From NCBI RefSeq assembly GCF_030553055.1, contig NZ_CP130713.1:62001-126000 (forward strand): a stretch of DNA of 64,000 nt, read 5' to 3'. Shown here in pieces: positions 5,494-38,637 of the stretch. The position numbers and the translations under genes were made by a program. Source of the DNA: Streptomyces sp. XD-27 (GTDB lineage: Bacteria > Actinomycetota > Actinomycetes > Streptomycetales > Streptomycetaceae). Each line of letters starts with the position of its first letter. Position 1 is the stretch's first letter. The notes below the pieces were generated by a model. It was not told the DNA's origin, made no database searches, and was given only the letters and a program-made list of their open reading frames with translations.

Positions 5494-5494
5494 C

Positions 5495-19732: not shown

Positions 19733-22048
19733 CTAATCCCAGGCGAGTTGTCCGGCATGGGTGTTGTGACGTGCGTGTGGCATGGCCACGGTGCGCCGGG
19801 TGATGCGGTGTTCGAGGGCGGTGTGGCGGCGTTTGGTGTGGGTGTTGGCCAGGGCGCGGTGGACGGCTTCGGGCTGGCCGATGAGCATGACACCGCGGCG
19901 GGCGCGGGTGACGGCGGTGTAGAGCAGGTTGCGCTGGAGGAGCTGGGTGGCCGAGGTGGTAAGGGGGATGACGACGTAGGGGTATTCGCTGCCTTGGGAG
20001 CGGTGGACGGTCAGGGCATAGGCGTGGAGGAGGTCGTCGAGGTCGGTGAAGGGGTAGAGGACAGGTTCGCCGTCGTGGAGGGTGACGGTGAGATGGTGGT
20101 TGTCGGGGTCGAGGGCGGTGATGGTGCCGGTGGCGCCGTTGAAGACGCCGTTGCTTCCGCGGTCGGGCCGGTTACGGATCTGCAGAACGCGGTCGCCCAG
20201 TCGGAAGACGTGTCCTCCGTGGCGGTGTTCGGGCTTTTCCGGGGCGGGCGGGTTGAGGCGCTGCTGGAGGCGGATGTTGAGGTCGAGGGTGCCGGCGGCG
20301 TGGCGGCGTGAGGGGCACAGGACCTGGATGCCTTCGCATGTGGTGGCGAAGTGGCGTGGGATGTGCGAGGCGACGAGATCCACGACGTAGTCGGCGATGT
20401 CACCGGGTGTGTAGAGGGGGCGGCAACCGAAGACTCCGGGGGCGGGCTGGGGTGTGAGGCCGCGCAGGATGCGGTGGGCGTTGTCGACGATCGCGCTGCT
20501 GCCGTCGTCCTGGCGGAAGACTTCGGTGAGGCGGGTGCGGGGGATCTCGGGGACGGCCAGGAGGTCGTGCAGGACGCGGCCGGGGCCGACGCTGGGCAGT
20601 TGGTCGGTGTCGCCGACGAGGAGCAGGTGGCATCCGCTGGGGATGGCTGCGGTGAGCTGGGCGGCGAGCTGGACGTCGAGCATGGAGGCTTCGTCGATGA
20701 CGATGAGGTCGGCGGTGGCGAGCGGGCTGTCGTGGTCGAAGAGTGAGTCGCTGGTGTGGGGGCGGATCAGGCGGTGCACGGTCATGGCTCTCTGGCCGGT
20801 GGTTTCCTCCAGGCGGTGGGCGGCTTTGCCGGTGGGTGCGGCTAGTGCGACCGTGGCTCCGGCTGCGGTGGCCAGGTCGACGAGGGTGCGCAGGGTGTGG
20901 GTCTTGCCGCAGCCCGGGCCGCCGGTCAGCACTGACAGCGTGTGGGTGAGAGCGGTCAGGACAGCCTGTTTCTGGCATGAGGTGAGCGTGCTGGCCGCAT
21001 CGCGTGTGAGCGCGGCGGTCCTGTCTGTGCGGCCGGCCAGGCGGGATGGGGCGTGGTGCAGGCGGAGGATGTCCCGGGCGAGGCCTGCTTCGGCCCGGTG
21101 CATCGCGGTGAGGCTGACTGCGGTGACGGAGTGGAAGGCCTCGCCGTCCTCGGCGGCGGGAACGGGCAGTTCCTCCACGATCGTCTCGCTGCGGGAGCGG
21201 AGCGTATCGAGGGCCTGGCGCAGGATGGTGTCGTCGAGGATGTCGGCGGTGGCGGGGTCGTTGTCGGTCAGCAGGTGGCGGGTGCGGGCGAGCAGGACGC
21301 GCTCGGGAAGGTGGCAGTCGCCTCGGGTGCGGGCTTGGGTGAGGGTGTGCAGGAGGGCGGCCTGCAGGCGCTGGTCGCTGTGTTTGGGGATTCCGGTGGC
21401 GAGGGCGATGCGGTCGGCAGTTTCGAAGCCGATGCCGTGGACGTCCCGGCACAGCTGGTAGGGGGCGTCGCGTACGGCTTGCATCGGGTTCTGGTCGGTG
21501 CCGGCGTAGGCCTGATAGATCTTCACGGCGAGGTGGGCGGAGAGGTTCAGGCCCTGGAGGAAGACCATGATGTCGGCGATGGACTTCTGGGTTTTCCAGG
21601 CTTTGGTGATGCGTTCCAGGCGGGTGGGGCCGATGCCGTGGATGGCGAGCAGGCGCTGGGGGTCGGTGTCGATGAGGTGCAGGGTCTGCTCGCCGAAGGT
21701 GTCGGTGATGGAGGTGGCCAGGATGTCGCCGATGCCGTGGATCATTCCGGAGGCGAGGTAGCGGCGGATGGCGTGGATGGTGGCGGGCCAGGTCCGCTCG
21801 CACACGTGGGTCTTGAACTGTGCGCCGTAGCGGGGGTGTTTGGTCCAGGTGCCGGTCAGGCGCAGGCTCTCCCCCGGCTGGGCGCCGAAGAGTGCCTTGC
21901 CGACTGCGGTGACGGTCTGCTCGCTGGAGGCGGGGCCGGTGGTGGTCAGGCGCAGCACGGTGTGGTGGTCGTAGGTGACCAGGACGAGGTGGTCGACGAC
22001 GCCCTCGATGTGTTCGGTGTGCGGTGCGAGCTGGCGGGTGGTGGTCAT
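19733..22048 (-). CDS. RecD2-type SF1B DNA helicase
   Basis: The 771-residue helicase has a RecD2-like N-terminal half with helix-hairpin-helix repeats (IHGIGDIL near 103, IHGIGPTRLERITKAW near 136, VHGIGFETADRIA near 203). The motor follows: SCQKQAV before Walker A GGPGCGKT (about 376-383), IDEASML as Walker B, GDTDQLPSVGPG (motif III), and UvrD-like C-terminal motifs (TVHRSQGSEYP, YTAVTRAR). RecD2 enzymes unwind DNA 5' to 3' and work without RecBC. This gene is probably an accessory paralogue, because it is coupled by ATGA overlaps to two island genes (22045 and 22701). ATG 22048 is the overlap start. Confidence 0.9.
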   Translation of the reverse strand: MTTTRQLAPHTEHIEGVVDHLVLVTYDHHTVLRLTTTGPASSEQTVTAVGKALFGAQPGESLRLTGTWTKHPRYGAQFKTHVCERTWPATIHAIRRYLASGMIHGIGDILATSITDTFGEQTLHLIDTDPQRLLAIHGIGPTRLERITKAWKTQKSIADIMVFLQGLNLSAHLAVKIYQAYAGTDQNPMQAVRDAPYQLCRDVHGIGFETADRIALATGIPKHSDQRLQAALLHTLTQARTRGDCHLPERVLLARTRHLLTDNDPATADILDDTILRQALDTLRSRSETIVEELPVPAAEDGEAFHSVTAVSLTAMHRAEAGLARDILRLHHAPSRLAGRTDRTAALTRDAASTLTSCQKQAVLTALTHTLSVLTGGPGCGKTHTLRTLVDLATAAGATVALAAPTGKAAHRLEETTGQRAMTVHRLIRPHTSDSLFDHDSPLATADLIVIDEASMLDVQLAAQLTAAIPSGCHLLLVGDTDQLPSVGPGRVLHDLLAVPEIPRTRLTEVFRQDDGSSAIVDNAHRILRGLTPQPAPGVFGCRPLYTPGDIADYVVDLVASHIPRHFATTCEGIQVLCPSRRHAAGTLDLNIRLQQRLNPPAPEKPEHRHGGHVFRLGDRVLQIRNRPDRGSNGVFNGATGTITALDPDNHHLTVTLHDGEPVLYPFTDLDDLLHAYALTVHRSQGSEYPYVVIPLTTSATQLLQRNLLYTAVTRARRGVMLIGQPEAVHRALANTHTKRRHTALEHRITRRTVAMPHARHNTHAGQLAWD

Positions 22049-22704
22049 CGAGGCTCTTCCATGGCGCGTAGTGCGGGGTCGTGGGAAGAGGTGGCGGTGG
22101 CGTCCTCCAAGGTGTCCGGTGGGACAGGTTCCGGGTCTCGGCTGAGCAGCTCGGGAAGGTCGCTGTGCTCAGTAGGGCAAGGCAAGGTTCGCGGAACGGA
22201 TGGTTCGGGGTGAGGCCGCGGATCGCTGGTGAGGGTGTGTGGGGCGTTGCCTTGGGGACGCTGTGGGGGTGCGAGCCAGCGGCCCTGGTCGGGATCAGCG
22301 GTGGGGATCAGCCAGATGGGGATGCCAGCGTTCATGGCCTGGTGGCAGAGGTCTGCGGTGCTGCCGCTGCCGGGGGTGAGGTGGTGGTGGAAGACGAGGG
22401 CGAGGCGAGGGCCTTCGTCGCGGAGGATGCGCTGGTGGTGTTCGGCTTCCCTCCAGTGACGGCGGGCTCGGGGTGCGGTCGTGGGGCGAGTGAGGGGGTG
22501 GCAGCGGTGGCGCCAGCAGGGCAGGTCGTGGTCCCGACACCAGTGGTGTGCGGCGCGGGTGGCTCCGGTGGGGGCGCCTTCGATGATGACAAGGTCGTCG
22601 CCATATCGGGTGGCGGCGCGGTCGAGGAGTGCGGTGACCGTGTCGGGCCAGGGCCATTGGCGACTGCCGCAGATCAGCAGGCGTGAGGCTGCGTTCGTGT
22701 TCAC
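22045..22704 (-). CDS. SLOG/DUF2493-like nucleotide-binding protein
   Basis: The 219-residue product opens with RLLICGSRQWPWPDTV and continues with VIIEGAPTGATRAAHHWC. These are the Rossmann-like GSR and G-A-x-GAD-type blocks of the DUF2493/YAcAr (SLOG) group, related to DprA and LOG proteins. The last ~75 residues are Pro-rich and disordered. SLOG proteins bind nucleotides or nucleotide signals and recur in bacterial conflict systems. It is the middle gene of a three-gene ATGA-linked operon (22701 gene, this gene, RecD2 helicase). A signal-sensing role is possible but unproven. Confidence is good for the fold and low for function. Confidence 0.72.
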   Translation of the reverse strand: MNTNAASRLLICGSRQWPWPDTVTALLDRAATRYGDDLVIIEGAPTGATRAAHHWCRDHDLPCWRHRCHPLTRPTTAPRARRHWREAEHHQRILRDEGPRLALVFHHHLTPGSGSTADLCHQAMNAGIPIWLIPTADPDQGRWLAPPQRPQGNAPHTLTSDPRPHPEPSVPRTLPCPTEHSDLPELLSRDPEPVPPDTLEDATATSSHDPALRAMEEPR

Positions 22705-23576
22705 TGCTGCGGCCTGCCTTCCTTTACGCGGGTGGCGGGTGGCAGGTCGTGGTGGACGTGGGTGCTGTGGGTGTGGGGGGTGAAGGGTTCCCAGCCGGCG
22801 AGGGCGATGTCGGCTGCTGCTGGTGTGGCGGCATGGGTGGTGCAGCGTTGGGCGCGCCAGCGCAGCTGCTCGGAGTACGGCAGCCGGGTCAGGTCGTAGA
22901 CGGCCACGTTCAGGTCGTCAGTCAGGGCTGTCTGGGCGTCGGCAGCGTGGGGGTAGAGGGGCTGGAGTGTCCAGACTCCGGGAAGGGCGTCGGGGTCGAG
23001 GACGGGGTGGGTGCAGCGGTGCCGGGCCCGGGTCTGGGCTACGCAGAGGATCTGTGGCAGGGGTGCGGGGGCGAGGTAGCGGATGTAGAGGAACTGCACG
23101 ACCGGCCGGCTCGGCTCGGAGGGCTCCGGGGCCGGTGGGGGCGCGGGGTTGGTGGTGTTGGGGAGGGTTGCGGTGTCGGTCAGGCGGCGGGTGTTGATGG
23201 CCAGGGCCCGGTGGAGTCGGCCCAGGAGTCCGGGCGGGGCCTCGGAGACGGTGGCGGGGCAGATGGCGTGGTGGCGTACGCGGCACCAGGGTGAGCCGTC
23301 GCCAGCGGGGTGGGCGAGGCCCTTGCTGACATGCCAGTGCTGGCCGGCGGGCACGGCTGCGGCGGGGAGTTCACGGGGGCGCAGGGGGACGGTGCGGTCG
23401 CCCGGCCGGCAGTACCACTCGATGCGGTTGCCGCACGCAGTACAGCGGCTGGCCTGTGCTGTACGCAGGAGACGGGTCGCGCTGTCGGGGGCGACGCGCA
23501 GAGTCCGGGGGGTGCGGTAGTCCTTGTAGCTGCCGTCCCAGGCTCGGGCGACCGCGGGGGTTGGTGTGGTGCGCAT
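22701..23576 (-). CDS. DUF6083-like zinc-binding protein, first gene of the RecD2 operon
   Basis: The 291-residue protein carries CTACGNRIEWYCRPG (a CxxC knuckle near residue 45). The layout PRELPAAAVPAGQHWHVSKGLAHPAGDGSPWCRVRHHAICPA follows; parts of it resemble the Streptomyces family labelled DUF6083. The C-terminal half has paired Cys in the pattern of a second zinc site or simple surface cysteines. Function is unknown. It overlaps the SLOG-like gene as ATGA. The upstream gap to 23754 is 177 bases and should hold the operon promoter. ATG 23576 opens MRTTPTPAV. Confidence 0.65.
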   Translation of the reverse strand: MRTTPTPAVARAWDGSYKDYRTPRTLRVAPDSATRLLRTAQASRCTACGNRIEWYCRPGDRTVPLRPRELPAAAVPAGQHWHVSKGLAHPAGDGSPWCRVRHHAICPATVSEAPPGLLGRLHRALAINTRRLTDTATLPNTTNPAPPPAPEPSEPSRPVVQFLYIRYLAPAPLPQILCVAQTRARHRCTHPVLDPDALPGVWTLQPLYPHAADAQTALTDDLNVAVYDLTRLPYSEQLRWRAQRCTTHAATPAAADIALAGWEPFTPHTHSTHVHHDLPPATRVKEGRPQQ

Positions 23577-23753
23577 GGGCGGAAGCTGGCAGGCGACATG
23601 CCGTCAGGGACGCGTCAGCGCCGTGGGTGTCCATCGCCCGGCCTCATTTGCCGCACTGGAGTTCCCGTACCCGATTAGCCGTTTGATTACGGGTACTGAT
23701 TCGGGTGAAGCTTCACAGCCACCGCGGCTGCCGGAAAGGGGTACTGCCGGATG

Positions 23754-24017
23754 TCAGCGAGTGGGTGGCAGCGGCGGGGTGTGACCCTCGCAGAGGGCGC
23801 CCAGGAGCCGGTCGATGGGAACCCCGAAGGTGTGGGCGAGGGCATGCCAGGTAGCCAGGCTTCCGGTCGTACGGCCCTGCTCGAGTTCGATCAGCGTACG
23901 GCGGGACAGGCCACTGCGGGCAGCGAGTTCGTCATAGCTCCATCCGCGCTCCGCCCGCAGCCGTGACAGCTCCAGGCGGAGCGCGCCGAGATTGGGGTCG
24001 GGCGGGAAGATCGTCAC
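23754..24017 (-). CDS. Small XRE-family regulator
   Basis: This 87-residue protein is almost entirely one XRE helix-turn-helix: LGALRLELSRLRAERGWSYDELAARSGLSRRTLIELEQGR near residues 10-48. A tail follows (TWHALAHTFGVPIDRLLGALC). GTG 24017 is the start; the first codons MTIFPPDP are Pro-rich. Directly upstream lie three copies of a 17-18-base motif (24032-24112) shared with the divergent gene at 24200, so it most likely represses that gene and itself. It lies between the RecD2 operon and the second half of the island. Confidence 0.82.
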   Translation of the reverse strand: MTIFPPDPNLGALRLELSRLRAERGWSYDELAARSGLSRRTLIELEQGRTTGSLATWHALAHTFGVPIDRLLGALCEGHTPPLPPTR

Positions 24018-24031
24018 CCACCCATCGCACG

Positions 24032-24112
24032 GTGCAGACCCCTGCCCTGACAGTGCAGACCTCTGCCCTATTTGCGCGACACGCCCTTCTGGGCAGGGCA
24101 GAGGTCTGCACT
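24032..24112. promoter_or_regulatory. Three-site operator with 21-base spacing
   Basis: The motif GTGCAGACCYCTGCCCT occurs at 24032-24048 and, one substitution apart, at 24053-24069. Its exact 18-base reverse complement (AGGGCAGAGGTCTGCACT) lies at 24095-24112. The direct copies are 21 bases apart, two helical turns. The inverted copy is centred about 42 bases from the second, four turns. It fills the gap between the XRE gene and the divergent gene at 24200. Binding of the XRE protein here is inferred from position. Confidence 0.7.
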
Positions 24113-24199
24113 ACCGTGTCCCGTCGCCCGCCACTCCCCCACCCCGCCGCACCCCGGCACGCGGCCGGCCATCACAGATCCCGCGGAGGATGACGACCG

Positions 24200-24739
24200 A
24201 TGAGGTCCGGCACGACCACACCCCCGGCACAGCGCATCTGGACCGTCGAGGTCCGCCCCGGACCGGGCGGAGCGGTCGTGGTCTGCCCGGCCTGCGGCCA
24301 GACCACGTCCGGTACCGCGACGACGGCGCGCAAAGCCGTGGTGGCCCACCTCGCGCAGCACGCCCGCGTCGAGACGCTCGCGCAGTACTGGCGGATCTGC
24401 CAGTGCGGGAAACACGGCTGCCGGTGGCATCCCCGGCACCGCGGCTGCGACGGGCAGGTACGCCTGCTCCTCGCACGCGAGCACGCAGGCCGGATGTGGC
24501 GCCTGGCCGATGTCTGCCGCGCTTGCGCCACCGTCACCGAACACGCCGCCGAGGTACAGGAGCCCCTCTGCGCCAGTCAGCCAGCTCCGCCGCACTCCCG
24601 GCCTTCCTCACTGCCGCGGCGTAGGGGCGGACTCATCACCACCAGGCCCGGTCACACCGTGCCCGGCGACCGTGAGCGCGTCGGCCACCAGTGGTGGGAC
24701 CCGTTGGAAGGGCTGTTGTGGGCCGACGACCTCGCGTAG
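24200..24739 (+). CDS. Cys-rich hypothetical protein (zinc ribbon-like)
   Basis: The 179-residue protein has a C-x2-C pair (VCPACGQTT, near residue 29), a compact Cys/His cluster (ICQCGKHGCRWHPRHRGC, near 66-83), and a further CRAC (near 108). This suggests one or two zinc-binding knuckles. The C-terminal 60 residues are low complexity and end in WWDPLEGLLWADDLA. I do not recognise the family. It is divergent from the XRE gene and shares its operator. ATG 24200 is the first Met; no strong ribosome site is seen (GAGGATGACG lies further upstream). Confidence 0.6.
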   Translation: MRSGTTTPPAQRIWTVEVRPGPGGAVVVCPACGQTTSGTATTARKAVVAHLAQHARVETLAQYWRICQCGKHGCRWHPRHRGCDGQVRLLLAREHAGRMWRLADVCRACATVTEHAAEVQEPLCASQPAPPHSRPSSLPRRRGGLITTRPGHTVPGDRERVGHQWWDPLEGLLWADDLA

Positions 24740-24890
24740 GACTGAATCAGCCCTCGAATCGTGGTGGTCGTCACGGAGATGACATGGGAATTCGTCGCTC
24801 ATGTCAGTTCTGGCTCGTCATCAACGGCCAGTGCGAAAACGAGTTCAACCGTAGATCAGGAATGGATTACGCCCAGGAAGCGCGACAAGT

Positions 24891-25703
24891 TCAGCCGCCG
24901 GCTTTACTGCCTGGCCGTGCGTGGGGGGCGCGCTGTGTTCTGCGACGGAGATCGCTGCTCTGCATGATGATGGACCGCACGAGCTTCTCGTACTGCAGTG
25001 CGTGGGCCGATTCGGCAGCGGCTCGGGTGAAGACGTCCCTGGTGAGGCTCCGGTTGACGACGTTCAGTGTGGTGAGCGCTTCTGTGAGCGCAGCCAGATG
25101 CTCGGGGACGTCGTCGGCCTCCCGGGCGGGTGTATCGGCTCCGGCATGCACTGTCACCCGGTCTTCAGTGGGGGCTTCTGGCAAAGGGGCCATCGCGGGG
25201 CGGCGCAGTGTGTCGGGGGACGGGAAGCGGATCGGCCAGTGACCAGCCATCTTGGGCGCGGGCTGCGCTGGAAACGTGTCGGACTCCGGAGTGAGGTGCT
25301 GCGCGCCGGGCGCGTGCTGTGTGGCCTGCTCGATCACCGCCCCTGGATCGCCGGCCCTATCCCGCATGTGCCCAGCCGGCTGCTGCGAAGGGGGCATTGA
25401 CGCCTCGATCGTGACCGGATTGACAGCCCGGCGCTGGCGGCGTGCATCCCGCGCGGCCAGCGCCGCCTCGGCGTGGCGACGCCCTTCCGGCGACATCGTG
25501 TGGAACACCCGCGCCGGGCGACCCGGATGCGGCCCTTCCTCCTCGCGAAGCGTGACCCAGCCCAGCACAGTAAGCCGGGCCAGGATCTGCGAAACCGTGC
25601 TCTTCCCCAGATCAGCCAGCTCACTGATCCTCGCTCCCCACAGCGGATCATCCGCCGGCACCAGCAACAGCAAGCGCAGTACTTCAACCGTCGGGCGGGT
25701 CAT
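24891..25703 (-). CDS. Winged-helix (MarR/PadR-like) regulator with extended C-terminus
   Basis: From ATG 25703 the 270-residue product opens with a winged helix (PTVEVLRLLLLVPADDPLWGARISELADLGKSTVSQILARL, then LGWVTLREEE and RPARVFH as the wing). A Pro-rich linker and a helical tail follow. The longer frame back to 25922 is disfavoured because a 28-base palindrome at 25748-25775 would then lie inside the coding region. It resembles regulators that control the following SF1 helicase in the same strand direction, although they are separated by about 450 bases. No effector domain is recognisable. Confidence 0.72.
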   Translation of the reverse strand: MTRPTVEVLRLLLLVPADDPLWGARISELADLGKSTVSQILARLTVLGWVTLREEEGPHPGRPARVFHTMSPEGRRHAEAALAARDARRQRRAVNPVTIEASMPPSQQPAGHMRDRAGDPGAVIEQATQHAPGAQHLTPESDTFPAQPAPKMAGHWPIRFPSPDTLRRPAMAPLPEAPTEDRVTVHAGADTPAREADDVPEHLAALTEALTTLNVVNRSLTRDVFTRAAAESAHALQYEKLVRSIIMQSSDLRRRTQRAPHARPGSKAGG

Positions 25704-25747
25704 GCGGGTTACGGCAGTCCTCACACCGACAAGCACATCACTCCAAG

Positions 25748-25775
25748 GGTCATAGGTCAAAAATGAACTATGACC
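25748..25775. promoter_or_regulatory. 28-base palindrome upstream of the winged-helix gene
   Basis: Arms GGTCATAGGTCA (25748-25759) and TGAACTATGACC (25764-25775) are inverted with one mismatch and a four-A spacer. It lies 45-72 bases before the chosen start at 25703. Its length and symmetry suit a dimeric winged-helix repressor, so autoregulation is likely. Confidence 0.6.
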
Positions 25776-26159
25776 TCGAAGGTGGCCAGCCAGTCTGGAG
25801 GCGCAATCAAATTGCTGGTGAGGCAGGTGGGGCTGGGGCATGTTCGTGCGCTCCCGCCGCCGGCTGCTGCTCAGCCTCCGCAGCCGCGCCGACCATGCGG
25901 AGACTGGGAGGCGTTCCTGCACGCCGAGAAGGCCCAGCGGCTGGCCTACGAAGAGATTGCCCGTGAGATAAGCGAAGTGCTGACCCTGCTCAGCCTGCGC
26001 GCGGGCGTCCTGGAGTCCCGGCCCGGCGCCCCAAGGGGAGCTACAGCACCTGCGGGAGGGGGAACCGACGTGATCTGGGGCTTCTCATCGCAGTCCCTCG
26101 GGAGCGGGCCCGAGGTGGACAACTCGGGCGCGCAGGGGGCATGGGGGTTCTTTGTGTTT
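25776..26159. other. Stretch between the winged-helix gene and the SF1 helicase
   Basis: A plus-strand frame opens at 25770 and has a helical-looking segment (HAEKAQRLAYEEIAREISEVLTLLSLRAGVLE). It then runs on for 1.6 kb as the antisense of the helicase, so most of it is certainly a shadow. Its first ~110 codons could be a small real gene, but there is no ribosome site or recognisable family. Confidence 0.35.
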
Positions 26160-28961
26160 CTAGGTCCGCACGGTGTGCTGGGCGAGGTGGGCGAGGACCG
26201 CGTGATGGGCTTCCCAGCCGTCGGGGGTCTTCGAGGTGACTCCGAGGTGGACGGGGTCGTTGGATGGGTGGGCGTCCAGAAGTGGGGCGATACCGGCGCG
26301 GGTGATGACGATGCAGGCGTGACGGTGGCGGGATGCGAGGACGCACAGGCGGCCGGCTTCCAGGTGGAAGGCGGAGGCGTCCCAGCGGCCGGAGAGCGGG
26401 TGCAGCACGATGGTGACGCTGAATTCGCGGCCTTGGAGCCGGTTGGCGGTGTCGACGGTGACGCCGTGCAGTCGCGGGTAGTGGCGTGCCAGGAGCTCGT
26501 TGATGTAGTGGGCCTGGCTGCGGTGGGCGACGCCGATGGCCAGGTCGCGGGGTTCCAGGACGCGTCCTTGAGGGTGGTTGTCGCAGGATGCCGTGGTTTG
26601 CCGGTGAAGCAGCCCGGCGGCTGTCTCCAGGGCGGTGTGGAAGGCTTCGGCGTCGATGCGGTGGGTGATGCGGGCGGGCAGTTCCAGCAGGGCCCATCCG
26701 GTTCGGGCGGCAGTCTCGAGGGCCTTGTCGACGGGAGTGCGCCTGCCCATCGCTGTGAAGGTGAGGGTCCGCTCCGTCTGGTGGCTCGCGGCTTCGAAGG
26801 GGGTGAAGGTGTAGAAGGCGTCGCGGATCAGGGGGACGGCGGTGGGCGGCAGGCGCCAGGACGTGCTCAGGGTGTGTACGGGCAGGTCGCGGTTTTGGGC
26901 GAGAAGGACGGCGACCGCACTGTTCATGGGGTCGTGGGGCAGGCCGACCCAGCGGTGAGTCCTGATCGTGGAGAACGGGTCGAGCTGTCCGGGGTCGCCC
27001 ACGAAGAGGGCTTGGTCGAAGAGGTGGCCGGTACGCAAGAGTGCGTCGGAGCGCATCTGGTAGGCCTCGTCGATGATGGCCCATGGCCACCGGCGGTCGT
27101 GGACGGTGGCCCATTTCATGGCGGTACCCACGACGACGTGGGCCGTTTTCAGGCTTTCGATGCGGTGGCCGACGCGTACGCCGGGCAGTGCCAGCATGTC
27201 GGGTGGGACTGTGTGGTTCGCTGCGGTGAGCCGAGCTGTTGGCAGGCGGGAGTGGGCCAAGCGTCGTACGAGGTCGTCGGCCTGGGTGTTGGTCTGGGTG
27301 ATGACGATGCAGGGGGCGCCGTGGTGCGCGAGGGTCTGCGCGGCGTGGATGACCAGGGTGGTTTTACCGGCGCCAGGCGGTGCGTCGACCACCAGCCCGG
27401 GGTGGGTGAGCGTGGGCAGTTGCTCCACGATCGCGCGTTGCGCGTGGTCTTCCTGGTGGTGCGGCGATGGCGGGGGCGAGTGGGGTGCCGCTTTTGCTCG
27501 TTGTCGCTCTGGGGGTGGGTGCGGAGGGCCTGCGTGGGTCCATGGAATCTGATCGGGCAGCGGGAATTGCGGCATCCGGTGGTAGTGGTCGGGGGCGAGG
27601 GTGCACACGAGGAAGGCGCCGGTGTCGGGGAGGACGGTGTGGCGGGGGCGGGCCGGGGTGCCCATGCCGGCGGTGATTTCGAGGTCGACGAAGGTGTCGC
27701 TGTCGCGGGGGGTGATCGCCCGGACCGTGTAGCGGGCGTCGCGGTGGGTGTGGCAGGCCAGGATCTGGCCGGGTTCCAGGCGCAGCGGATCGGTGGTTGA
27801 GACGGTGAAGCGGGGGCGCCATTGGGCTCGTTTACTGCTTCCGTACACGAGGTGGTCGGCATCGACGGTGGTGACGGTGCCGCCGAAGGCTTCTCCGGTG
27901 GTGCGCAGTTCGGCGCGGGTGAAGGGGTCATCGAGGGCTCGTTCGGCGGCGAAGGCCGCGGCGGCGTGCTCCCTGCGAGCCAGGCCGATGGCGGCGGCGA
28001 CGGCATCGTCGCGGGCGCGCTGGGGGCGCCTGTCTTGGGCGAGGTAGGCGGTCATGTCGGTGAACTCGGTGCGTTCCCGTTTCCATCGGCGCCGGGTGCC
28101 GTCAGCCTCGGGCAGAGCCTGCAGAAGGGTGTAGGCCTGCCACATGCGTTCCCAGGTCGGTTGCATGTAGTGAGCCAGGAGGATGCGGAGGTCGTTCAGG
28201 CAGCGGGCCTGCTCGCGCGGACCGGCGCGATAGGCATGGAAAAGGGGAGCCAGGTAGTCGGTGTCGAAAGCCGGATCGGTGGCCGGGCCGGCCGAGCGGT
28301 GGGTGGCGGGGTCTTCCGCTGCCAGTGCGGGGTGATGGCCGCTGGCGGTGTGGCGGGATGGGTCGATCCACGCCAGCAGGGTGGCCACGTCCTCGTCTTC
28401 AAGGGGGCTTTGCCCAGTGACCCAGTGCATGGCGAGAAAGCCGGTCAGGGGGATGAGGGCGGATGTGCCGGGGAGCTCGGCGCGGCCGGCGAAGAAGGTC
28501 AGCCACTGGCCCAGGCGCCGCACCGAGCAGGAGTCGACGGAGCCGCCGTCAACAGGACGCAGCCGCAGGTCGCGTCCGAGAGTGTTCAAGTAGGCCACGG
28601 CATGGGGGTTGGGCACCAGGAGTTGCGGGGCGTCGAGGAAGCGCTGCCGTGCCGGCCTGGTGGAGGTGGCGGGCAGGTGCTCATGACGCCGCTGGTGTTC
28701 TTCGATGTAGGCGGTGACCCTCGAGGCGAGGGAGGTGAGCATGGGGGTGGTGCTGCCCGTCGGCGGCGCGAGGAAGAGTTCGGGGCGGGCGGGGTCGGTG
28801 CCGAGCATGACGGCCAGGGGCCTGGCCGCTGTGCCCGATTGCTTCAGGGGCAGCAGCATCAGGGGCCGGTCGCTCAGATGCAGGTGGCGAAGCCGACTGG
28901 TGGGCAGGGCGTTGCCGGTGGCAGCGGCGCGCATCCGCAGCAGGGTGGTGAGCAAGCTCAT
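26160..28961 (-). CDS. SF1 helicase (Upf1/Dna2-like motor) with long N-terminal region
   Basis: The 933-residue protein has an uncharacterised N-terminal 500 residues, partly helical, and a compact beta-rich part near 360-460. A superfamily 1 motor follows: VVDAPPGAGKTTLV (Walker A at 527-534), IIDEAYQM (Walker B near 635), GDPGQLDPF near 660, SWRLPPTAVPLI near 720, and TANRLQGREFSVTIVLHPL near 860. This is the order of the AAA_11/AAA_12 (Upf1/Dna2) helicases. Its start overlaps the end of a Cas4/RecB-like nuclease gene by ATGA, so helicase and nuclease are made together, like a split Dna2 or AddAB-type machine. The DNA substrate is unknown. Confidence 0.85.
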   Translation of the reverse strand: MSLLTTLLRMRAAATGNALPTSRLRHLHLSDRPLMLLPLKQSGTAARPLAVMLGTDPARPELFLAPPTGSTTPMLTSLASRVTAYIEEHQRRHEHLPATSTRPARQRFLDAPQLLVPNPHAVAYLNTLGRDLRLRPVDGGSVDSCSVRRLGQWLTFFAGRAELPGTSALIPLTGFLAMHWVTGQSPLEDEDVATLLAWIDPSRHTASGHHPALAAEDPATHRSAGPATDPAFDTDYLAPLFHAYRAGPREQARCLNDLRILLAHYMQPTWERMWQAYTLLQALPEADGTRRRWKRERTEFTDMTAYLAQDRRPQRARDDAVAAAIGLARREHAAAAFAAERALDDPFTRAELRTTGEAFGGTVTTVDADHLVYGSSKRAQWRPRFTVSTTDPLRLEPGQILACHTHRDARYTVRAITPRDSDTFVDLEITAGMGTPARPRHTVLPDTGAFLVCTLAPDHYHRMPQFPLPDQIPWTHAGPPHPPPERQRAKAAPHSPPPSPHHQEDHAQRAIVEQLPTLTHPGLVVDAPPGAGKTTLVIHAAQTLAHHGAPCIVITQTNTQADDLVRRLAHSRLPTARLTAANHTVPPDMLALPGVRVGHRIESLKTAHVVVGTAMKWATVHDRRWPWAIIDEAYQMRSDALLRTGHLFDQALFVGDPGQLDPFSTIRTHRWVGLPHDPMNSAVAVLLAQNRDLPVHTLSTSWRLPPTAVPLIRDAFYTFTPFEAASHQTERTLTFTAMGRRTPVDKALETAARTGWALLELPARITHRIDAEAFHTALETAAGLLHRQTTASCDNHPQGRVLEPRDLAIGVAHRSQAHYINELLARHYPRLHGVTVDTANRLQGREFSVTIVLHPLSGRWDASAFHLEAGRLCVLASRHRHACIVITRAGIAPLLDAHPSNDPVHLGVTSKTPDGWEAHHAVLAHLAQHTVRT

Positions 28962-30097
28962 GTCGTGCCTGCCAGGAAGTCGGCATGGACACGTTGCGCG
29001 TGGCGGAGCGCCTGGGTGATGTCGGACCGGTCCCGTGAGGGGTGCTGGTGGCCGTCGGTAAGGGCCAGTGCCAGGGCGATGTCGTCGATGCCTGCGACGT
29101 CGTCGCGGACCGTGGTGCCCAGGACTTCGGTCCGGCCTTGGTGGCGTGCTTCGTTACGGCAGAAGTGGGCCAGTTCGCAGTGATGCAGGCAGCCGGGGCT
29201 GTAGTGCGCACGGGGGGCAGACAGTGCTGCGGCGAGTTCCTCGCGGGGCCGCGTCGGGTTCGCCTCGCGATCCGGGGCCAGGTCGAAGGTGGTACTGGGG
29301 GGCAGCTGGTCGAGCAGGTCAGGCAGGCGGCGGAGCCGGCCGAGATGCCAACTGAGCGATTTGATCTTCTGGGCCGCGTCGGCGAGGGTCGCGGTGGGGC
29401 GGTGGGAGAAGTCGCGGGGATTGACCAGGACCACACGGTTGGAGACGCGCTCGGGTGGGAGGCCCCCCTCGGCCAGGAGCTCGCGCAGGGCCAGGACGTA
29501 GGCCGCGGCCTGGGTCAGCGCCGCGGCGACTTTGGCGGGATCGGCTTGGCCGTCGATGACCGGGAAGGATTCAATCTCCACGATGTGGAAGGTCTCGTGG
29601 TGCTGGAAGGCGACGATGTCGGGTTCCAGGTAGACGGGGTGGCCGGCGACGGTCAGGCGCAGCACGGGGTGGTCGAGCAGAGTGCGGGCGCGTGTTTTGT
29701 CACGGGCCGCGCCGAGGATGAGATTACGGGTGTGGGAGTGGCGCAGCGGCAGCGATGACGGCTCACGGCCGCCCACGGCGTTCACGTCCTCGTATGACAC
29801 CTCGGGCAGGGTGAGGTCGAGGGTCTCGCGGAGTAATTGCACCAGTTCGGCGCCGGCTTGGGTGGTGACCCGGCGTTCGAAGGCGGCGCCATGGTCGAGG
29901 GCGATCGCGGATGTGCACAGCGGCCGTGGCAGGTTCAGGTGCGCGGCGAGGGCGTCCTTGTCGACGCCGGCCGCATCGAGCAGGGCGCGCCGGTCACATT
30001 CGGGGTTGACGGTCAGCGCGGCCAGGGTTTTGGCGGTGTGCGGGACAGGGGGGCTGGATCCTCTCAGGGCGTCCAGTCGCGCGGCGAGCAAATTCAC
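28958..30097 (-). CDS. Cas4/RecB-like PD-(D/E)XK nuclease with Fe-S cysteines
   Basis: GTG 30097 has AGGAAG five bases before it, giving 379 residues. CTSAIALDHGAAFERRV (Cys61, then HGxxFExxV) is the N-terminal hallmark of Cas4/TM0106-like RecB nucleases. LEPDIVAF (158-160) and IVEIES (174-176) form the acid part of the PD-(D/E)XK site. QAAAYVLALREL (196-200) is the QxxxY motif. CLHHCELAHFC (Cys303, 307, 313) with Cys61 completes a four-Cys iron-sulphur site. Position 176 is Glu where the catalytic Lys is normally found (GAA instead of AAA/AAG). The gene is coupled by ATGA to the SF1 helicase downstream. Confidence 0.8.
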   Translation of the reverse strand: MNLLAARLDALRGSSPPVPHTAKTLAALTVNPECDRRALLDAAGVDKDALAAHLNLPRPLCTSAIALDHGAAFERRVTTQAGAELVQLLRETLDLTLPEVSYEDVNAVGGREPSSLPLRHSHTRNLILGAARDKTRARTLLDHPVLRLTVAGHPVYLEPDIVAFQHHETFHIVEIESFPVIDGQADPAKVAAALTQAAAYVLALRELLAEGGLPPERVSNRVVLVNPRDFSHRPTATLADAAQKIKSLSWHLGRLRRLPDLLDQLPPSTTFDLAPDREANPTRPREELAAALSAPRAHYSPGCLHHCELAHFCRNEARHQGRTEVLGTTVRDDVAGIDDIALALALTDGHQHPSRDRSDITQALRHAQRVHADFLAGTT

Positions 30098-30143
30098 GGT
30101 TCTTCCTTGGATCAAGGTGCGGTGGTGCGGTCGCGGCGCGCGG

Positions 30144-30938
30144 TCAGGACGTGCGGTGCAGGCGAGTGACGTTGCGCAGGGTGTGGCCGAAGAGCTGCTC
30201 CACGTCGGCGAGTTGCTGTGCGCGGCGGGCGGTCTCGGTGCGGGTGTCGGCTTCGTCGTCGGCGTGGATTGCCAGTTCGGCTGCGGCGGCGCGGCGCAGC
30301 GCGTCCAGGTCGAGCGGCCCCTTGGTGGGGCAGCCGGGAATGTTGCGGTTGTAGTGCAGCAGGAGTCGGCGGACGGGCTCCTGCTGCAGGGAGTCGTCGG
30401 CGCGGGCCTGGGAGGCTTCCGCGAGTCGCAGGGCCGAGGTGAGGAAGTGGACACGGTGGGTGAGCGGGCCCACCACGCGTTGCTCCAACGGCCAGGTGCT
30501 GAGGGCGAGGAGAGCGCGGACCGGGGCGAGCAGGTCGGATGTCAGGGCCGAGCAGATGTAGTAGGCGCGTGCATAGGGCGAGGAGCGGAAGGAGCGTTCC
30601 TCATCCCGGCGCACGGCGGCCAGTCGCGCGGTGTTCAACGGGCCGGAGAAGAAGGCCTCGTGAACCAGGCTGACCAGCTTGGGCGCGGCGGGAACAGTGA
30701 GGAGCGTCAGCACCTGGTGGACCTGCTCCCGGGCGGGCAGCCCCGGCTCGGCCGTGGACTGGAGCTGTGGCTGCATCTGCGGCGGGGCCGGCACGGGCGC
30801 GTCATCGGAGCCGAACAGGGCGTTGTAGGCGTTCTGGGTGCGCTTGAGTTCAGGCGACCTCCTCTTCGGCGCCGTCGGCGGAGCGCTCGCTCCCCTCATC
30901 GGACCCGCCTGGCGCGGCCTCAAGGGGCTGTTCAGCAA
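30144..30938 (-). CDS. Unknown helical protein, first gene before the nuclease, 5' end damaged
   Basis: I do not recognise this protein. The reliable part (about 30144-30850) is mostly helical, with RSSPYARAYYICSALTSDLLAPVRALLALSTWPLEQR and a Glu/Ala/Arg-rich C-terminal coil. It ends 46 bases before the nuclease start, so it belongs to the same operon. The frame extends upstream to 30938, but the first ~29 codons are antisense to the toxin-tip gene on the plus strand. This indicates that its true N-terminus was lost at a junction near 30850. A new start may have been gained inside the frame. Confidence 0.5.
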   Translation of the reverse strand: MLNSPLRPRQAGPMRGASAPPTAPKRRSPELKRTQNAYNALFGSDDAPVPAPPQMQPQLQSTAEPGLPAREQVHQVLTLLTVPAAPKLVSLVHEAFFSGPLNTARLAAVRRDEERSFRSSPYARAYYICSALTSDLLAPVRALLALSTWPLEQRVVGPLTHRVHFLTSALRLAEASQARADDSLQQEPVRRLLLHYNRNIPGCPTKGPLDLDALRRAAAAELAIHADDEADTRTETARRAQQLADVEQLFGHTLRNVTRLHRTS

Positions 30939-31362
30939 GGCTCCCGCAGGGGCGCCTCGTTATGGCCCAGGAGCGGCGCACCCCCGTGACCCCTCTATCA
31001 CCGGTAAAGCCCCTGAAGCGCCAACGATCGATGTAGGCAACTACAGGGGAAGGTTCCAAGCGTCTTTGCACCGTAACGGCATGAAGCGATTGCCGGACGA
31101 CTGGGACGCCCATCACGCCATCCCGCAGGAGTACCGGAACCACCCGGGGTTCATTAACTTCGACTTCGATGCCCCATCCAACATGCGTGGGGTTCCTGGC
31201 AGTAGGATGAAGTCGCGTGGCGCCAACGTTCACCAGGAAATAACCAATCAATGGAAGTGGTTCCGGGATACGAACCCAAATGCTACGCGCGCGGAAATAG
31301 AAGACTTTGCCGAGCAAATAGACAGGGGATATGGTGACTATTACTGGAGAGAGCCTCGATAG
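30852..31362 (+). pseudogene. C-terminal tip of a polymorphic toxin (AHH/HNH nuclease)
   Basis: The frame carries a pre-toxin stretch (GDLLFGAVGGALAPLIGPAWRGLKGL) and then the toxin domain. This has DDWDAHHAIPQEYRNHPG with the AHH-type His pair of HNH/EndoVII nucleases, NMRGVPG, and a closing HQEITNQW motif. The usual long secreted N-terminal part (Rhs, WapA or Laminin-like repeats) is missing: the homology begins exactly at the damaged start of the minus-strand gene. An orphan GTG (30838) could still express it. It directly precedes a matching immunity gene, with 32 bases of overlap. Composition is clearly AT-richer than the flanks, a sign of recent transfer. Confidence 0.7.
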
Positions 31363-31864
31363 CTGGATCGCGGCGATGTCGCAGCTGTCCGCGAGTTTCA
31401 CTCGGACTTTCGAAGGCAAATACGGCTACCCGCCGGGCGAGAACAGGGTTGTCGAGGCTACCGGTGATAGCGATACTAAATCGCACCTTGCAGTGTTGAA
31501 GGAAGCGGAGGTCGGGGACCTGGTCGCCTTCTATTCGCGAGTAGCGGAGGTGTCACTTCCTGATGTGGGCTCCGGATTCTTCGTTCACGCAGCCGAGTCG
31601 GTAATCGACGGCATGAACGGAGATCAGCCAACCAGGGTAGCGGGCTCCGCTGATGAGCCGATCATCGTTTTCGGCTCAGACGGCGGGGGATCCCTGTTCG
31701 CGCTCGGTGCTTCAGAAGGTCTGATCTATCGCCTAACCGGTGGCACTCTGATCGGCTCCGTCTACGAGGTGGAAGATTCTGGCCTCGAAGTCGTGGCGCG
31801 GAACTTGTGGGGGTTCTTGCAGTATCTACGCGAAGCCTTCTCTGAGTCCATTTCTGGAGAATGA
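31331..31864 (+). CDS. SMI1/KNR4 (SUKH)-like immunity protein
   Basis: The 177-residue protein has the SUKH pattern: an early YxxPxxNRV-like segment, DLVAFYSRVAEVSLPDVGSGFFVH, then IIVFGSDGGGSLFALG (the hallmark GDxGGG-like loop with aromatic/hydrophobic flanks), and a helical tail. SUKH proteins neutralise nuclease toxins encoded directly upstream, which fits the AHH toxin tip at 30852. The ATG at 31331 lies within the last codons of the toxin. It may now protect against external toxins, since its own toxin is truncated. Confidence 0.72.
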   Translation: MVTITGESLDSWIAAMSQLSASFTRTFEGKYGYPPGENRVVEATGDSDTKSHLAVLKEAEVGDLVAFYSRVAEVSLPDVGSGFFVHAAESVIDGMNGDQPTRVAGSADEPIIVFGSDGGGSLFALGASEGLIYRLTGGTLIGSVYEVEDSGLEVVARNLWGFLQYLREAFSESISGE

Positions 31865-32228
31865 GAGTTATAACGCCTAACGGGCGCGTTGGGCCGATGA
31901 CCACCGGCTGGGCACGCCGGGGCGAGCACTGTCTCGTCTCCGTGGGTCCCCGGGCAGTGCCCGGACGACAGCCTTCGGAACATCGACCACGTGGTGCAGC
32001 AACATCGCCTCGGAGACCGGCCGGGGCGTCGCCCAGCGCAGCATGACGCCAGCGCGTCCGGGCGGGATGAGCACCTTGTTGTATCCCCGGTGGAGACGGT
32101 CGGCGTGCAGCTCGCAAGGGCGGCGACCTCGGCGTGGACCGCGTTCTCGCCGCCCGGCACGCGCGGCCCACACCTCACCGTGCCCCCTGACTGACATGCG
32201 CAGCGGTTCACTCAGACGCTGATCAGCG
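31865..32228. other. Unresolved stretch with possible minus-strand gene remnant
   Basis: A minus-strand frame here contains NKVLIPPGRAGVMLRWATPRPVSEAMLLHHVVDVPKAVVRALPGD. This reads like protein but has no family I recognise and is open only over a short distance. It is best treated as a remnant. The left 20 bases carry the 3' flank of the immunity gene. Confidence 0.35.
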
Positions 32229-33998
32229 ATGGGCCGCCGGTCGCGCGTCGTCGACAGCCGGACCACTGATGACGGCTGCTCGATCCGAAGACGCCGCCAG
32301 TGCCCGGACTGCTCCCGGCGGTTCACAACCGCCGAGACCGCGTCACTGATGGTGATCAAGCGGAACGGGGTCACCGAGCCCTTCAGTCGCAACAAGGTCA
32401 TCTCCGGCGTGCGCAAGGCGTGCCAGGGCCGCCCGGTCACCGAGGACGCACTGGCGCAGCTCGGTCAGCGGGTCGAGGAGGCCGTGCGCGCCACCGGCAG
32501 CGCCGAGCTGTCCACCCATGACATGGGGCTCGCCATACTCGGCCCGCTCAAGGACCTCGACCTCGTCGCCTACCTGCGCTTCGCGGTGCAGCTCACCGTC
32601 GCGGAGTTCTACCGCTGCCGCACCGCCGGGGAGGTGGCCCGGCTGCTCGCGGACGCGACTTCGGCGGTCCCCACGACGGCGGACGGCTCCAGGAGCTGCC
32701 GGCCGACGGACCGCCGCCCGTCCTGCCGCCCGGAGCGCCGCCTCGCCCACCCGGGGGCGGCAGCGGGGAGCAAGACCTTCGTCCTGGAACTCGCCACCCC
32801 GCCGGAGCCCCGGCGGCTGCGCCTCGCGCTGGAGGCGGTCCTGCGGCGCCACCCGGCCCTTCGCCTGTGCGCCGAACCCGACGGCAGCGCACTGCGGGTG
32901 CGCCCACTCGACGATCTCGACCTCTTTCTCGCAGAAGTGACGCCCGGGCGGTCCGTCGAGCCCGCGAACCGCCCGGCCTGGCTGCACCGCTCGGCGCAGG
33001 CCCGCGTGCCCGACCCTCGCAGGGATCCGCTGCTGCGGCTGATGCTCTCCGCGCCGCAGGACGGGCCCACGCTCCTGGCCCTGACCGTGCACCCGCTGGC
33101 ACTGGACGGCCTCGGACTGCTGAGCCTGTGCCACGATCTGTCCACCGCCTATCAGGACCCGGGCCCCCTGGGCCCGGAGGACCGGGGATTCCTAGGGCAG
33201 CCGACCTGGCGTCACGAGCTGCCCGGCAGCGTGCCGGCGAAGCACGCCGCCGAGGTGTGGCGCGGCCTGCTGGGCGGCCGGGACCGGTCCCCGGCCGGCT
33301 TCGCGGATTCGAGCGGGGCGTCGGCCGAAGCCGGGGGCGAGGTCATCGGCAGGGACACCGAGTCCCCATGGGCCCCGAGGCCGGAGCTGCACGCCGCGAT
33401 CCGGTCGGCCTGCGCCCGGGACGGGATCGCGCCGTACGCCGTCCAGCTCACCGCCTTCGCCATCGCCGCGGCCGTGGCCGAGGGGGGCGAGCTGCGGATC
33501 GCCCTGCCGTGGGACGGCCGGGCCGCAGCCGGACTGGAGACGTCCGTCGGCGCGTTCGCCGACATCGTGCCGCTGCCCGTCGCGATCCGTCCCGGGCAGC
33601 CGGTCGGCGCCGTCCTGTCGGCCGTGCTCGCCACCCTCGACCGGATCGGGAGCGTCCGCCCCGTGCCGTACGCGGACGTGGCGGCCGCGGATCCATCTCT
33701 CGCCTGTGAACCGGACGTGGTGTTCGGCTATGCCTGGGACAACGGCGAGGACGTCACCTTCGGCGGGAAGGGGGCGCGTTGGGTGGGGCCCGAGCCGCTC
33801 CAGCCGGGTGTGCGCGTGCACTTCTCGGTCGTGGACGGCGCTGACGGGTTCCGGGTGCACGCCCGGTCCCGGGCCGACGGCCCCGGCGCGGCGGTGCTGC
33901 TCTCGGCGTACCGGACCGCTCTCTACGCGCTGGTGTTCGATCCGCAGGCGCGGGCCGACGGCTGCCCGGACACCGACGGCACGAGTGAGGACGTATGA
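32229..33998 (+). CDS. Chimera: NrdR fragment + carrier-protein tail + NRPS condensation domain
   Basis: Residues 6-117 are NrdR, the ATP-cone repressor of ribonucleotide reductase genes ([25 protein letters not shown], then the ATP-cone [29 protein letters not shown]). The first zinc pair CPFC is missing and the fold stops at LVAYLRFA. The same frame then continues as the last helix of a carrier protein ([22 protein letters not shown]) and, after a linker, a condensation domain from about residue 185. This has [11 protein letters not shown] (the second His of HHxxxDG kept) and VVFGYAWDN. At 589 residues the frame is intact. NrdR function is surely lost; the condensation domain could be active. 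ATG 32229 follows no clear ribosome site. Confidence 0.75.
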
Positions 33999-35040
33999 GG
34001 TTCAGCCTGTTCTTCTTCGCCAACGGGGACGACCCCGACGAGCAGTATCGGCTGCTCATCGAGGCGTCCAGGTTCGCCGACGCCGAGGGCTTCTCGGCCG
34101 TCTGGACACCGGAGTGACACTTCCATCCGTTCGGCGCGCCCTTCCCCAACCCGGCGGTCACGGGGGCGGCGGTCGCCGCGGTCACCCGCCGGGTCGCGGT
34201 GCGGGCCGGCAGCGTGGTGCTGCCGCTGCACGATCCGCTGCGGGTCGCCGAGGAATGGGCCGTGGTGGACCGCCTCTCCGGCGGCCGGGCCGAGGTGGCG
34301 TTCGCCTCCGGGTGGAATCCGCAGGACTTCGCCCTCGCACCACAGCGCTTCGCCGAGGCCAAGGAAGAGATGCGCCGGGGGATCGGCGAGGTGCTCCGGC
34401 TCTGGTCCGGTGCCGCCGTCGAGCGCACCGGCCCCGGGGGGGGCGCCGCTATCCCGTCCGGACCTACCCAACGCCTCGGCACGGCGGGTTGCCGCTGTGG
34501 ATCACGGCGGCGGGCTCGCCACAGACCTATGCACTGGCCGGGGAGCTGGGTGCCGGGGTGCTGACCCATCTGCTCGGTCAGTCACTGGACGAACTGGAGG
34601 AGAACCTGGCCGGATACACCGACGCCCTGACCACGCACAGCCACGGCATGGAGCGGGAACGCGTCTGCGTCATGGTGCACACCCATCTCGGGCCCGACCG
34701 CCAGCGGGCCCTAAACCTCGCCAGGGGCCCGCTCATGGCCTACATGCGCTCCTCACTCAGCCTGTTCGGCCTCAAGTCTGCCGCTCCGGCCGACGACAGT
34801 ACCGGCGACAAGGCACTTGAGGAGCTGCTGGAACTCGCCTACCAGGACTTCTCCCGCGATCGCTGCCTGCTTGGCTCGCCGGCGGACGCACTACCGCTGA
34901 TCGAGGCGCTGGCCGAGATCGGGGGCGACGAGATCGGCTGTCTCATCGACTTCGGCATCGGCACCGACGAGGTCCTGCACGGCCTTGAGACCCTGGCCGA
35001 GTTGAACCGCCGATGCGCCGAGCTGTCAGCGCCCCCGGAT
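33995..35040 (+). pseudogene. Luciferase-like FMN monooxygenase of NRPS clusters, dead
   Basis: ATG 33995 overlaps the chimera stop (ATGA). The frame gives [13 protein letters not shown]... ADAEGFSAVWTPE, then TGA (34115-34117, codon 41) where relatives have Arg, followed by HFHPFGAPFPNPAVTGAAVAAVT in the same frame. A second break lies in the run of eight G at about 34437-34444. After it the sequence continues in a new frame (YPVRTYPTPRHGGLPLWITAAGSP... IGTDEVLHGLETL). This is the MupA/Atu3640-type LLM embedded in NRPS assembly lines. Two independent lesions mean it is a pseudogene rather than one sequencing error. Confidence 0.82.
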
Positions 35041-35460
35041 CCGGGTCGGCACCGAGGGGACCGCGGCAGCTGCTGGTCCTGCACCACGCAGGCGGCTCGG
35101 CAGGGCCGTATCAGCGGCTCGTCCATGCGTTCGGCGGCGGCCGCGGTCGGGAGGCTGTCGCTGCGCGACTACCTGCTCGGGGTCCTGCGGGCCGACTTCG
35201 CCGTGGCCGACGGCCACCGGGCCACCGCGGGCGCGCAGCTGCGCCGGACCCGCGGCGCGGTCTTCCGCAGCCTGGCCGACCCGGTGGCCTCGCCGGACGG
35301 CTGGTGCGGGGCGTTCCGGCAGCCGATGACCGGCCACGCCTTCGCGGGCGGCCATCTCTCCCTCGTCGACCGGGTCGAGGAGGTGGCGGATCGCATCGAC
35401 GCTGAGCTCGACCGGCTCCGGCCGCGCGGACCGGAGCCGGTGCGCCGCTCGCCAGCGGTG
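35013..35460 (+). pseudogene. Type II thioesterase remnant
   Basis: The start RQLLVLHHAGGSAGPYQRLVHAFGG (frame from 35013) is that of a type II thioesterase. The C-terminal part (YLLGVLRADFAVADGH, then FAGGHLSLVDRVEEVADRIDAEL) is in another frame. The GHSMG nucleophile region is missing between them. It therefore has an internal deletion and a frameshift. It lies after the LLM and before the MATE exporter, as in a normal NRPS cluster. Confidence 0.65.
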
Positions 35461-35569
35461 GGACCGCCCGACCGGCGGCGTGATGGGCCACGCAGCCGGG
35501 CCCGCTGCCCAAGGCCCTGCCCACGCACCCGGGTTGGACATCCACGAAGATCGGACAGGAGCACTTTCA

Positions 35570-36916: not shown

Positions 36917-37003
36917 CCCGTCGGCCCGTCCGCCCTCGGGCCGCCCCGCCAGTGGGGGCCGGTCCGGGGGCGGACGGCCTTGCGCGCGGTGGGGTGCGCC
37001 CGT

Positions 37004-37485: not shown

Positions 37486-37486
37486 G

Positions 37487-38150: not shown

Positions 38151-38181
38151 GCCCATCTGCGATCGGCTCCGGCGTTCCGGT

Positions 38182-38496: not shown

Positions 38497-38637
38497 CCGG
38501 CCGTGCCGCCAGGAAGCCCTTCGAGCGCCCGAGCCGACAGCCGCGTGGACAGCACGGCGGGCTTCCTGGGGGATGCACGAGCCGCGGTCGACATCGCACA
38601 CCCTGTCCTGCGATGCGGCTGCTGCACGCCGCCTGCG

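Follow-up and report, generated by a model that had tools for sequence, protein, structure and literature searches.

Introduction

Helicases and nucleases that work together on DNA ends are known both from bacteria, where AddB of the AddAB pair also carries an iron-sulphur (Fe-S) nuclease, and from eukaryotic resection by Mre11-Rad50 and Dna2. According to PMC6265447, Mre11-Rad50 cleaves near protein blocks and hairpins, and PMC12624138 describes its attack on hairpin telomeres and hairpin-ended linear replicons; in Streptomyces, the Wadjet and Lamassu systems are reported in PMC10482375 to be enriched at chromosome extremities. Here we describe a locus of Streptomyces sp. XD-27, contained in a window of 64,000 nucleotides (positions 62001-126000 of the single 7.55-Mb contig, G000:C1), in which a first-pass annotation had taken the interval 19733-30938 as one candidate undescribed island. 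We suggest, with a probability of about 0.7, that 26160-30899 holds a decayed version of an actinobacterial machine for processing DNA ends, and that the XRE, DUF6083, SLOG and RecD2 genes beside it form a separate neighbouring module.

A conserved nuclease-helicase operon linked to SbcCD

The genes of this module and the features around them are, in window coordinates:

26160-28961, minus strand: fused HelN+HelC, a superfamily 1 (SF1) helicase with an RNase H-like fold, stalk, 1B-like barrel and DNA2-like core
28958-30097, minus strand: Nuc, a Cas4/AddB/Dna2-type Fe-S PD-(D/E)XK nuclease of 379 residues, by its motifs in alignment A1
29570-29572, minus strand: Nuc codon 176, GAA (Glu), against Lys or Arg in the loci from other genomes
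30144-30899, minus strand: helical protein, drawn with 251 codons; the true N-terminus is missing, and homology starts at about codon 17
30851: breakpoint at which collinearity with Streptomyces roseoverticillatus locus L008 stops
30838-31362, plus strand: orphan polymorphic-toxin tip at the breakpoint, weak AHH-nuclease match (PF14412, E 0.019, under the cut-off)
31331-31864, plus strand: probable immunity partner of the toxin tip, by position; no family match
25128-40382: one copy of a terminal inverted repeat, the other being at the right contig end; the two agree at 99.7%, with 41 gap openings and 0 mismatches

That helicase, Fe-S nuclease and helical protein form a DNA-processing module, as initially proposed, is supported by their occurrence as a conserved actinobacterial operon. 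A pattern-based scan of an 84,980-species collection with the helicase as query, which recovers close relatives only, gave 44 loci, some of them too short to display all neighbours. Nuc is present in 42 of these, the helical protein in 22, and SbcD and SbcC in 17 each, while RecD2 and DUF6083 are found in a single locus (L008). In most relatives the helicase is split into two genes, HelN and HelC.

Nuc relatives as such are widespread: 375 of 392 Streptomyces genomes have one, as do 365 of the 380 of good quality; their helicase partners were examined only in the loci read. In 18 of the 392 genomes the Nuc match scores 347 bits or more, against 274 for the best of the rest; the clade criterion is bit score, and two core Nuc copies also reach 48% identity. 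A matching SbcD lies beside Nuc on the same contig in 17 of the 18, scoring at least 276 bits in 16 and surviving as a 165-residue piece of 44% identity in the other (G022); the best SbcD in any other Streptomyces genome reaches 172 bits. The exception is the window genome, in which no matching SbcCD was found: what SbcCD it has is a single distant pair, located at 7.29 Mb and made up of an SbcD of 31% identity and SbcC fragments.

The Nuc tree holds 71 rows (73 loci were chosen, two of them without a usable match). One clade of 35 rows (support 97/93) has SbcCD in 34, the window again being the exception; L018, L103 and L120 duplicate other rows, and leaving them out gives SbcCD in 31 of 32 rows. 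Another clade, with 19 rows (support 100/99), has neither the helical protein nor SbcCD, and a third, of six Streptomyces rows, has the helical protein and no SbcCD in the 20 kb read. The remaining 11 rows, all from outside Streptomyces, comprise four with SbcCD, six with the helical protein only (two of these are short loci) and one with neither. Where linked, SbcC and SbcD are adjacent and carry ATPase, zinc-hook and phosphoesterase motifs (L010, L055, L095), and SbcD scores above the TIGR00619 cut-off.

Beyond SbcC, TniA/TniB-like transposase and ATPase genes are conserved in one lineage (L010 767-2362, L008 698-1534). Distant SbcD genes (28-33% identity) also occur near both ends of the linear chromosome in G052 (C1 26077 and 8639519) and G129 (C1 54700 and 8476724), and near a plasmid end (NZ_CP134205 422608); at the one such locus read (L118), neither Nuc nor the helicase was found alongside.

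The proteins of the module

Nuc, first drawn inside a 498-codon open reading frame, is better started at the GTG at 30097; the ATGA overlap that joins it to the helicase is confirmed, and the helical protein lies upstream of it as predicted. Its description as a Cas4/RecB-like Fe-S nuclease agrees with the family's Cas4/AddB-like motifs; the window copy has Glu in place of the catalytic Lys176 and probably cannot cut. Across the 33 sequences of alignment A1, H143, D160, E-x-K176 and QxxxY, together a PD-(D/E)XK core, are near-invariant, and four cysteines are invariant (C34...C303-x3-C307-x5-C313). Matches to the Pfam family PDDEXK_1 are weak (10 of 33 members, E up to 0.1), one of the 33 matches a Cas4 model of PADLOC (E 0.005), and window Nuc matches neither. 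A profile search of Nuc against the PDB returned designed repeat proteins only, and a phage origin was rejected, as Nuc had no match in the phage collection.

HelN (about residues 1-490) comprises the RNase H-like fold, the stalk and the 1B-like barrel, and HelC (about 505-933) the SF1 core. With its SF1 motifs, a stalk and 1B barrel ahead of the core, and DNA2 as the best PDB sequence match, the helicase is of the Upf1/DNA2-like type. A catalytic exonuclease is expected to have a DxE in strand 1; HelN has none there and is thus probably non-catalytic. The helical protein has no family or fold match, and its structure model reaches a predicted local distance difference test (pLDDT) score of 69.

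The same genome carries a core-type Nuc-HelN-HelC paralogue at G000:C1 2624193-2628803 (L053), on whose function the literature searched yielded nothing. On Rhodococcus and Xylanimonas plasmids (L059 4062-9143, L058 5997-11137), a HelC relative of 34-36% identity follows an AAA ATPase, a VWA protein and a 390-residue protein of unknown kind, the last of which has no significant match to Nuc or HelN in either plasmid; these loci are possibly another use of the same helicase.

Probable decay of the window copy

The window aligns to L008 with 93.9% identity over 11,079 columns (19799-30851). Collinearity stops at 30851, within the 5' end of the helical gene, whose homology begins only downstream of this point. 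Beyond it, L008 continues into SbcD, SbcC, TniA and TniB, whereas the window continues into the AHH-like toxin tip and its probable immunity gene. The right edge of the interval 19733-30938 is this rearrangement breakpoint, and the toxin-immunity junction, which had been counted among the ingredients of the system, instead lies where a rearrangement has taken away SbcCD together with the 5' end of the operon. A second lesion lies in Nuc: over 99 loci, some of them overlapping, residue 176 is Lys in 78, Arg in 15 and Glu in six, and all six are from the window genome. Since 25128-40382 recurs inverted at the right contig end, where the copy is cut off by the assembly, the module sits in the terminal inverted repeat, and GAA at codon 176 is present in both repeat copies.

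The window operon has lost SbcCD, its promoter side and the catalytic lysine; its Nuc is probably unable to cut, and the copy is probably inactive. Two independent lesions, breakpoint and K176E, point to an operon that has stopped performing its original role. The window strain's copy would accordingly be the wrong one to clone, as this would probe a dead copy, and follow-up is worthwhile through an intact relative.

Position at replicon ends and Wadjet neighbours

In the Streptomyces examined, the SbcCD-linked form lies mostly close to where linear replicons end; terminal repeats often contain it, and Wadjet is sometimes its neighbour. The module is at most 93 kb from a contig end in six of seven complete or near-complete chromosomes of the clade: Nuc is 23 kb from both ends in G049 and G129, 7.6 kb from both ends in G301, and 5.6 kb, about 17 kb and 91 kb from an end in G093, G417 and the window genome, respectively. 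The end of G129 folds into telomere-like palindromes; contig ends elsewhere serve as proxies for chromosome ends. As a control, all 24 other Nuc copies listed from single-contig genomes (20 core-type and four third-type by score, with most lengths rounded) are at least 1.07 Mb from an end. On the linear plasmid NBC_01244, Nuc is 11.6 kb from the end. The WAC00288 record is labelled circular; Nuc lies 3.2 kb from its end, and the SbcC and SbcD genes there are fragmented. The 13-mer that begins archetypal telomeres does not occur in the first 600 bases of L094, L095, L096, L108 or L054, and is found at 396 in L055.

Wadjet genes (JetABCD, fewer where the locus is cut) follow HelC on five replicons: the gap is about 0.25 kb at most in L055, L056, G301 and G097, and 2.5 kb in G417. 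Beside most of the clade members read, Wadjet is lacking.

Possible functions of the module

The combination of a Mre11-Rad50-type complex with an Fe-S nuclease and a DNA2-like helicase points to the processing of DNA ends, blocked ones included, and the module most likely serves to resect or degrade such ends, whether in defence or in the upkeep of the replicon's ends. With all its genes intact, SbcCD would first recognise a DNA end, which may be blocked by protein or closed by a hairpin, and nick there; HelN and HelC would next open the duplex and, together with the Cas4-type Fe-S nuclease, degrade the strand laid bare, like eukaryotic Dna2, and the helical protein would serve as a putative adaptor.

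Several points weigh against this reading. The enzymatic steps and their purpose are predicted from the observed conservation, linkage, motifs, position and losses. Nuc has no above-threshold family match, and SbcC, at 185 and 149 bits, stays under the TIGR00618 cut-off of 478.5. As regards decay, the window HelC is intact and fused, so that some helicase function could remain, and the Glu at codon 176 might conceivably stem from an assembly error, although both repeat copies carry it. As regards position and linkage, Nuc of G110 is 522 kb from the end, nothing places the relatives in Amycolatopsis, Micromonospora and Trebonia at replicon ends, and the six helical-protein-only rows from outside Streptomyces have no SbcCD in the DNA read; the module is therefore neither telomere-bound nor SbcCD-bound by nature.

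Within end processing, roles in defence and in telomere maintenance or repair appear about equally likely, and we hold each only tentatively. As anti-plasmid or anti-phage defence, SbcCD and the Dna2-like unit would degrade invading ends, while Wadjet would cut circles and thereby feed them ends. The Wadjet genes downstream of HelC would fit such a role, as would the enrichment of Wadjet and Lamassu at Streptomyces extremities described in PMC10482375 and the attack on hairpin-ended linear replicons in PMC12624138; Wadjet is, however, missing beside most clade members read, no model of PADLOC matches window Nuc or the helical protein (with just the one Cas4 match among the 33 Nuc relatives), and occurrence of a Nuc relative in nearly all Streptomyces genomes (375 of 392) is unusual for defence.

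As an accessory repair or telomere-maintenance system, the module would act on linear replicons at ends that are broken or capped by protein, and so allow their arms to be repaired or exchanged by recombination. This agrees with its location close to chromosome ends and to the end of a linear plasmid, with a gene composition equal to the eukaryotic resection set, and with the replacement of Streptomyces arms after breaks described in PMC5869714, which names AdnAB as the main helicase-nuclease. Only 18 of 392 Streptomyces genomes carry the SbcCD-linked type of Nuc, however, so the module cannot be generally essential for telomeres, and relatives occur in genera without shown linearity.

It seems somewhat unlikely that the terminal position is a by-product, with linear plasmids carrying the module as ordinary cargo and donating their ends to chromosomes. 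Streptomyces chromosome arms are hot spots for gene gain, the plasmid NBC_01244 carries Nuc close to its end and TniA/TniB-like genes flank one lineage; yet two differently oriented lineages both lie near ends, and the distance of 23 kb is the same in different genomes (G049 and G129). A bolder form of the end-processing reading would be a surveillance encoded at chromosome ends in which SbcCD and the split Dna2-like helicase-nuclease, paired with Wadjet in some replicons, would destroy unprotected or foreign-capped ends of rival linear plasmids, phages and circles linearised by Wadjet and spare the host's own ends capped by terminal protein; taken as a whole, we consider this unlikely.

The neighbouring RecD2 module

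The left part of the interval holds:

19733-22048, minus strand: accessory RecD2 helicase (TIGR01448, 709 bits against a cut-off of 500)
22045-22704, minus strand: YspA-type SLOG protein (PF10686)
22701-23576, minus strand: DUF6083 protein (PF19561)
23754-24017, minus strand: XRE regulator (HTH_3)
24032-24111: three operator-like copies of GTGCAGACCyCTGCCC, by sequence repeats
24891-25922, minus strand: winged-helix (MarR-like) regulator (PF12802, E 1.3e-4, under the Pfam cut-off)
25748-25775: near-perfect inverted repeat, GGTCATAGGTCA/TGAACTATGACC, probable operator upstream of the winged-helix gene

The matches to TIGR01448 (an equivalog), PF10686 and PF19561 confirm the identities first given to RecD2, SLOG and DUF6083, and the two regulators with their own operator-like repeats do lie between the modules. 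Neighbours among the first three genes share 4-base overlaps; the proposed ATGA coupling is correct for RecD2 and SLOG, whereas DUF6083 and SLOG overlap by GTGA. Copies of the XRE-side repeat recur upstream of XRE-DUF6083 in L008 and L117, and the true start of the winged-helix gene is probably near 25720, downstream of the inverted repeat. A conserved role for the winged-helix and zinc-like genes was considered and rejected: among the 44 loci, the zinc-like gene occurs only in L008 and the winged-helix gene in L008 and L009.

A second RecD2, 49% identical to that of the window, lies at 2.55 Mb in the same genome. RecD2 of the window type (at least 56% identity) is found in five genomes listed among 150 relatives (G000, G069, G085, G040, G014), and DUF6083 adjoins it in two of the places listed (G000, G069). 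In G069 the SLOG position spans only about 0.3 kb.

By gene order, the 19.7-30.9 kb interval thus reads as two separate modules. That it is one undescribed system is highly improbable and largely refuted: the interval is collinear in L008 at 93.9%, and DUF6083 lies about 2 kb from HelC also in G093 and G086, but among the loci read RecD2 adjoins the nuclease-helicase module only in the window and L008, and G069 has RecD2-DUF6083-XRE with the helicase genes of that module absent from the 20 kb read.

Other features of the window

A Van-type set at 3353-9219 resembles a glycopeptide-resistance-type cluster in the chromosome arm:

3353-4393: D-Ala-D-Ala-ligase family
4390-5421: 2-hydroxyacid dehydrogenase
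5750-7234: Mur-ligase
7410-8549: sensor kinase
8524-9219: further gene at the end of the set, by position

A single open reading frame at 32229-33998 combines an NrdR zinc ribbon, an ATP-cone and a condensation domain of the nonribosomal peptide synthetase type, all above Pfam cut-offs, which is an unusual fusion.

Comparison with known systems

The earlier statement that the locus matches no named system stands for the nuclease-helicase module in PADLOC and NCBIfam searches. PADLOC found no complete system among the proteins scanned, and none of its models fits window Nuc or the helical protein; matches of helicases and ATPases to GajB, Mokosh, mad3, mad8, LmuB and PbeC are partial or weak, as are those of RecD2 to type IV RecD and others. 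HelC matches an NCBIfam 'PLuB system' entry far under the cut-off, for which no paper was found, and among the papers listed in searches of the open-licence PMC literature, a coverage that leaves out subscription journals and preprints, none is plainly on this module.

The closest likeness is to eukaryotic resection by Mre11-Rad50 and Dna2, with which the module shares a Mre11-Rad50-type SbcCD, an Fe-S PD-(D/E)XK nuclease and a DNA2-like SF1 helicase; in the module, however, nuclease and helicase are separate genes, the helicase is usually split further, and there is an extra helical protein. While Cas4 and Dna2 have cysteines spaced CxxC, x2-x5, Nuc has CxxxC, x3-x5. AddAB, AdnAB and RecBCD likewise pair helicase and nuclease on DNA ends, but the module's helicase is Upf1/DNA2-like, and its nuclease is a separate protein. 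HelC aligns with the helicase part of six TM0106-family (TIGR03491) nuclease-helicase fusions (hhalign 98.1%, 201 columns; six of ten open reading frames were used), whose counterparts are split genes in the module.

Wadjet (JetABCD) and Lamassu resemble the module in having an ATPase of the structural maintenance of chromosomes (SMC)/Rad50 type. Jet genes are not part of the module (no Jet model matched the ten window proteins scanned), LmuA has no match among the proteins scanned, and the module's SbcC is of the SbcC/Rad50 type, with SbcD. SbcC does match LmuB (E 4e-17 and 1e-13), less well than SbcC models (1e-54 and 1e-43), and some reported Lamassu calls might therefore touch the SbcCD-linked module. 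The associations of PMC5704561 also tie a Cas4-like nuclease to a helicase, with a proposed defence role, but the helicases in the passages concerned are UvrD-like or YprA-like, and the main text mentions neither SbcC nor Streptomyces. TtrA, the telomeric helicase of Streptomyces, is likewise encoded at replicon ends; passages of PMC8743542 describe it as a putative DEAD-box helicase, in contrast to the SF1 helicase of the module. In this module, prokaryotic genes of the Mre11-Rad50 type are linked to those for an Fe-S nuclease and a Dna2-like helicase. Wadjet and Lamassu, which cluster at Streptomyces chromosome ends according to earlier work, are joined by a further module of the SMC/Rad50 type, one that gives genetics a tangible way into the question of why such machines occupy chromosome ends.

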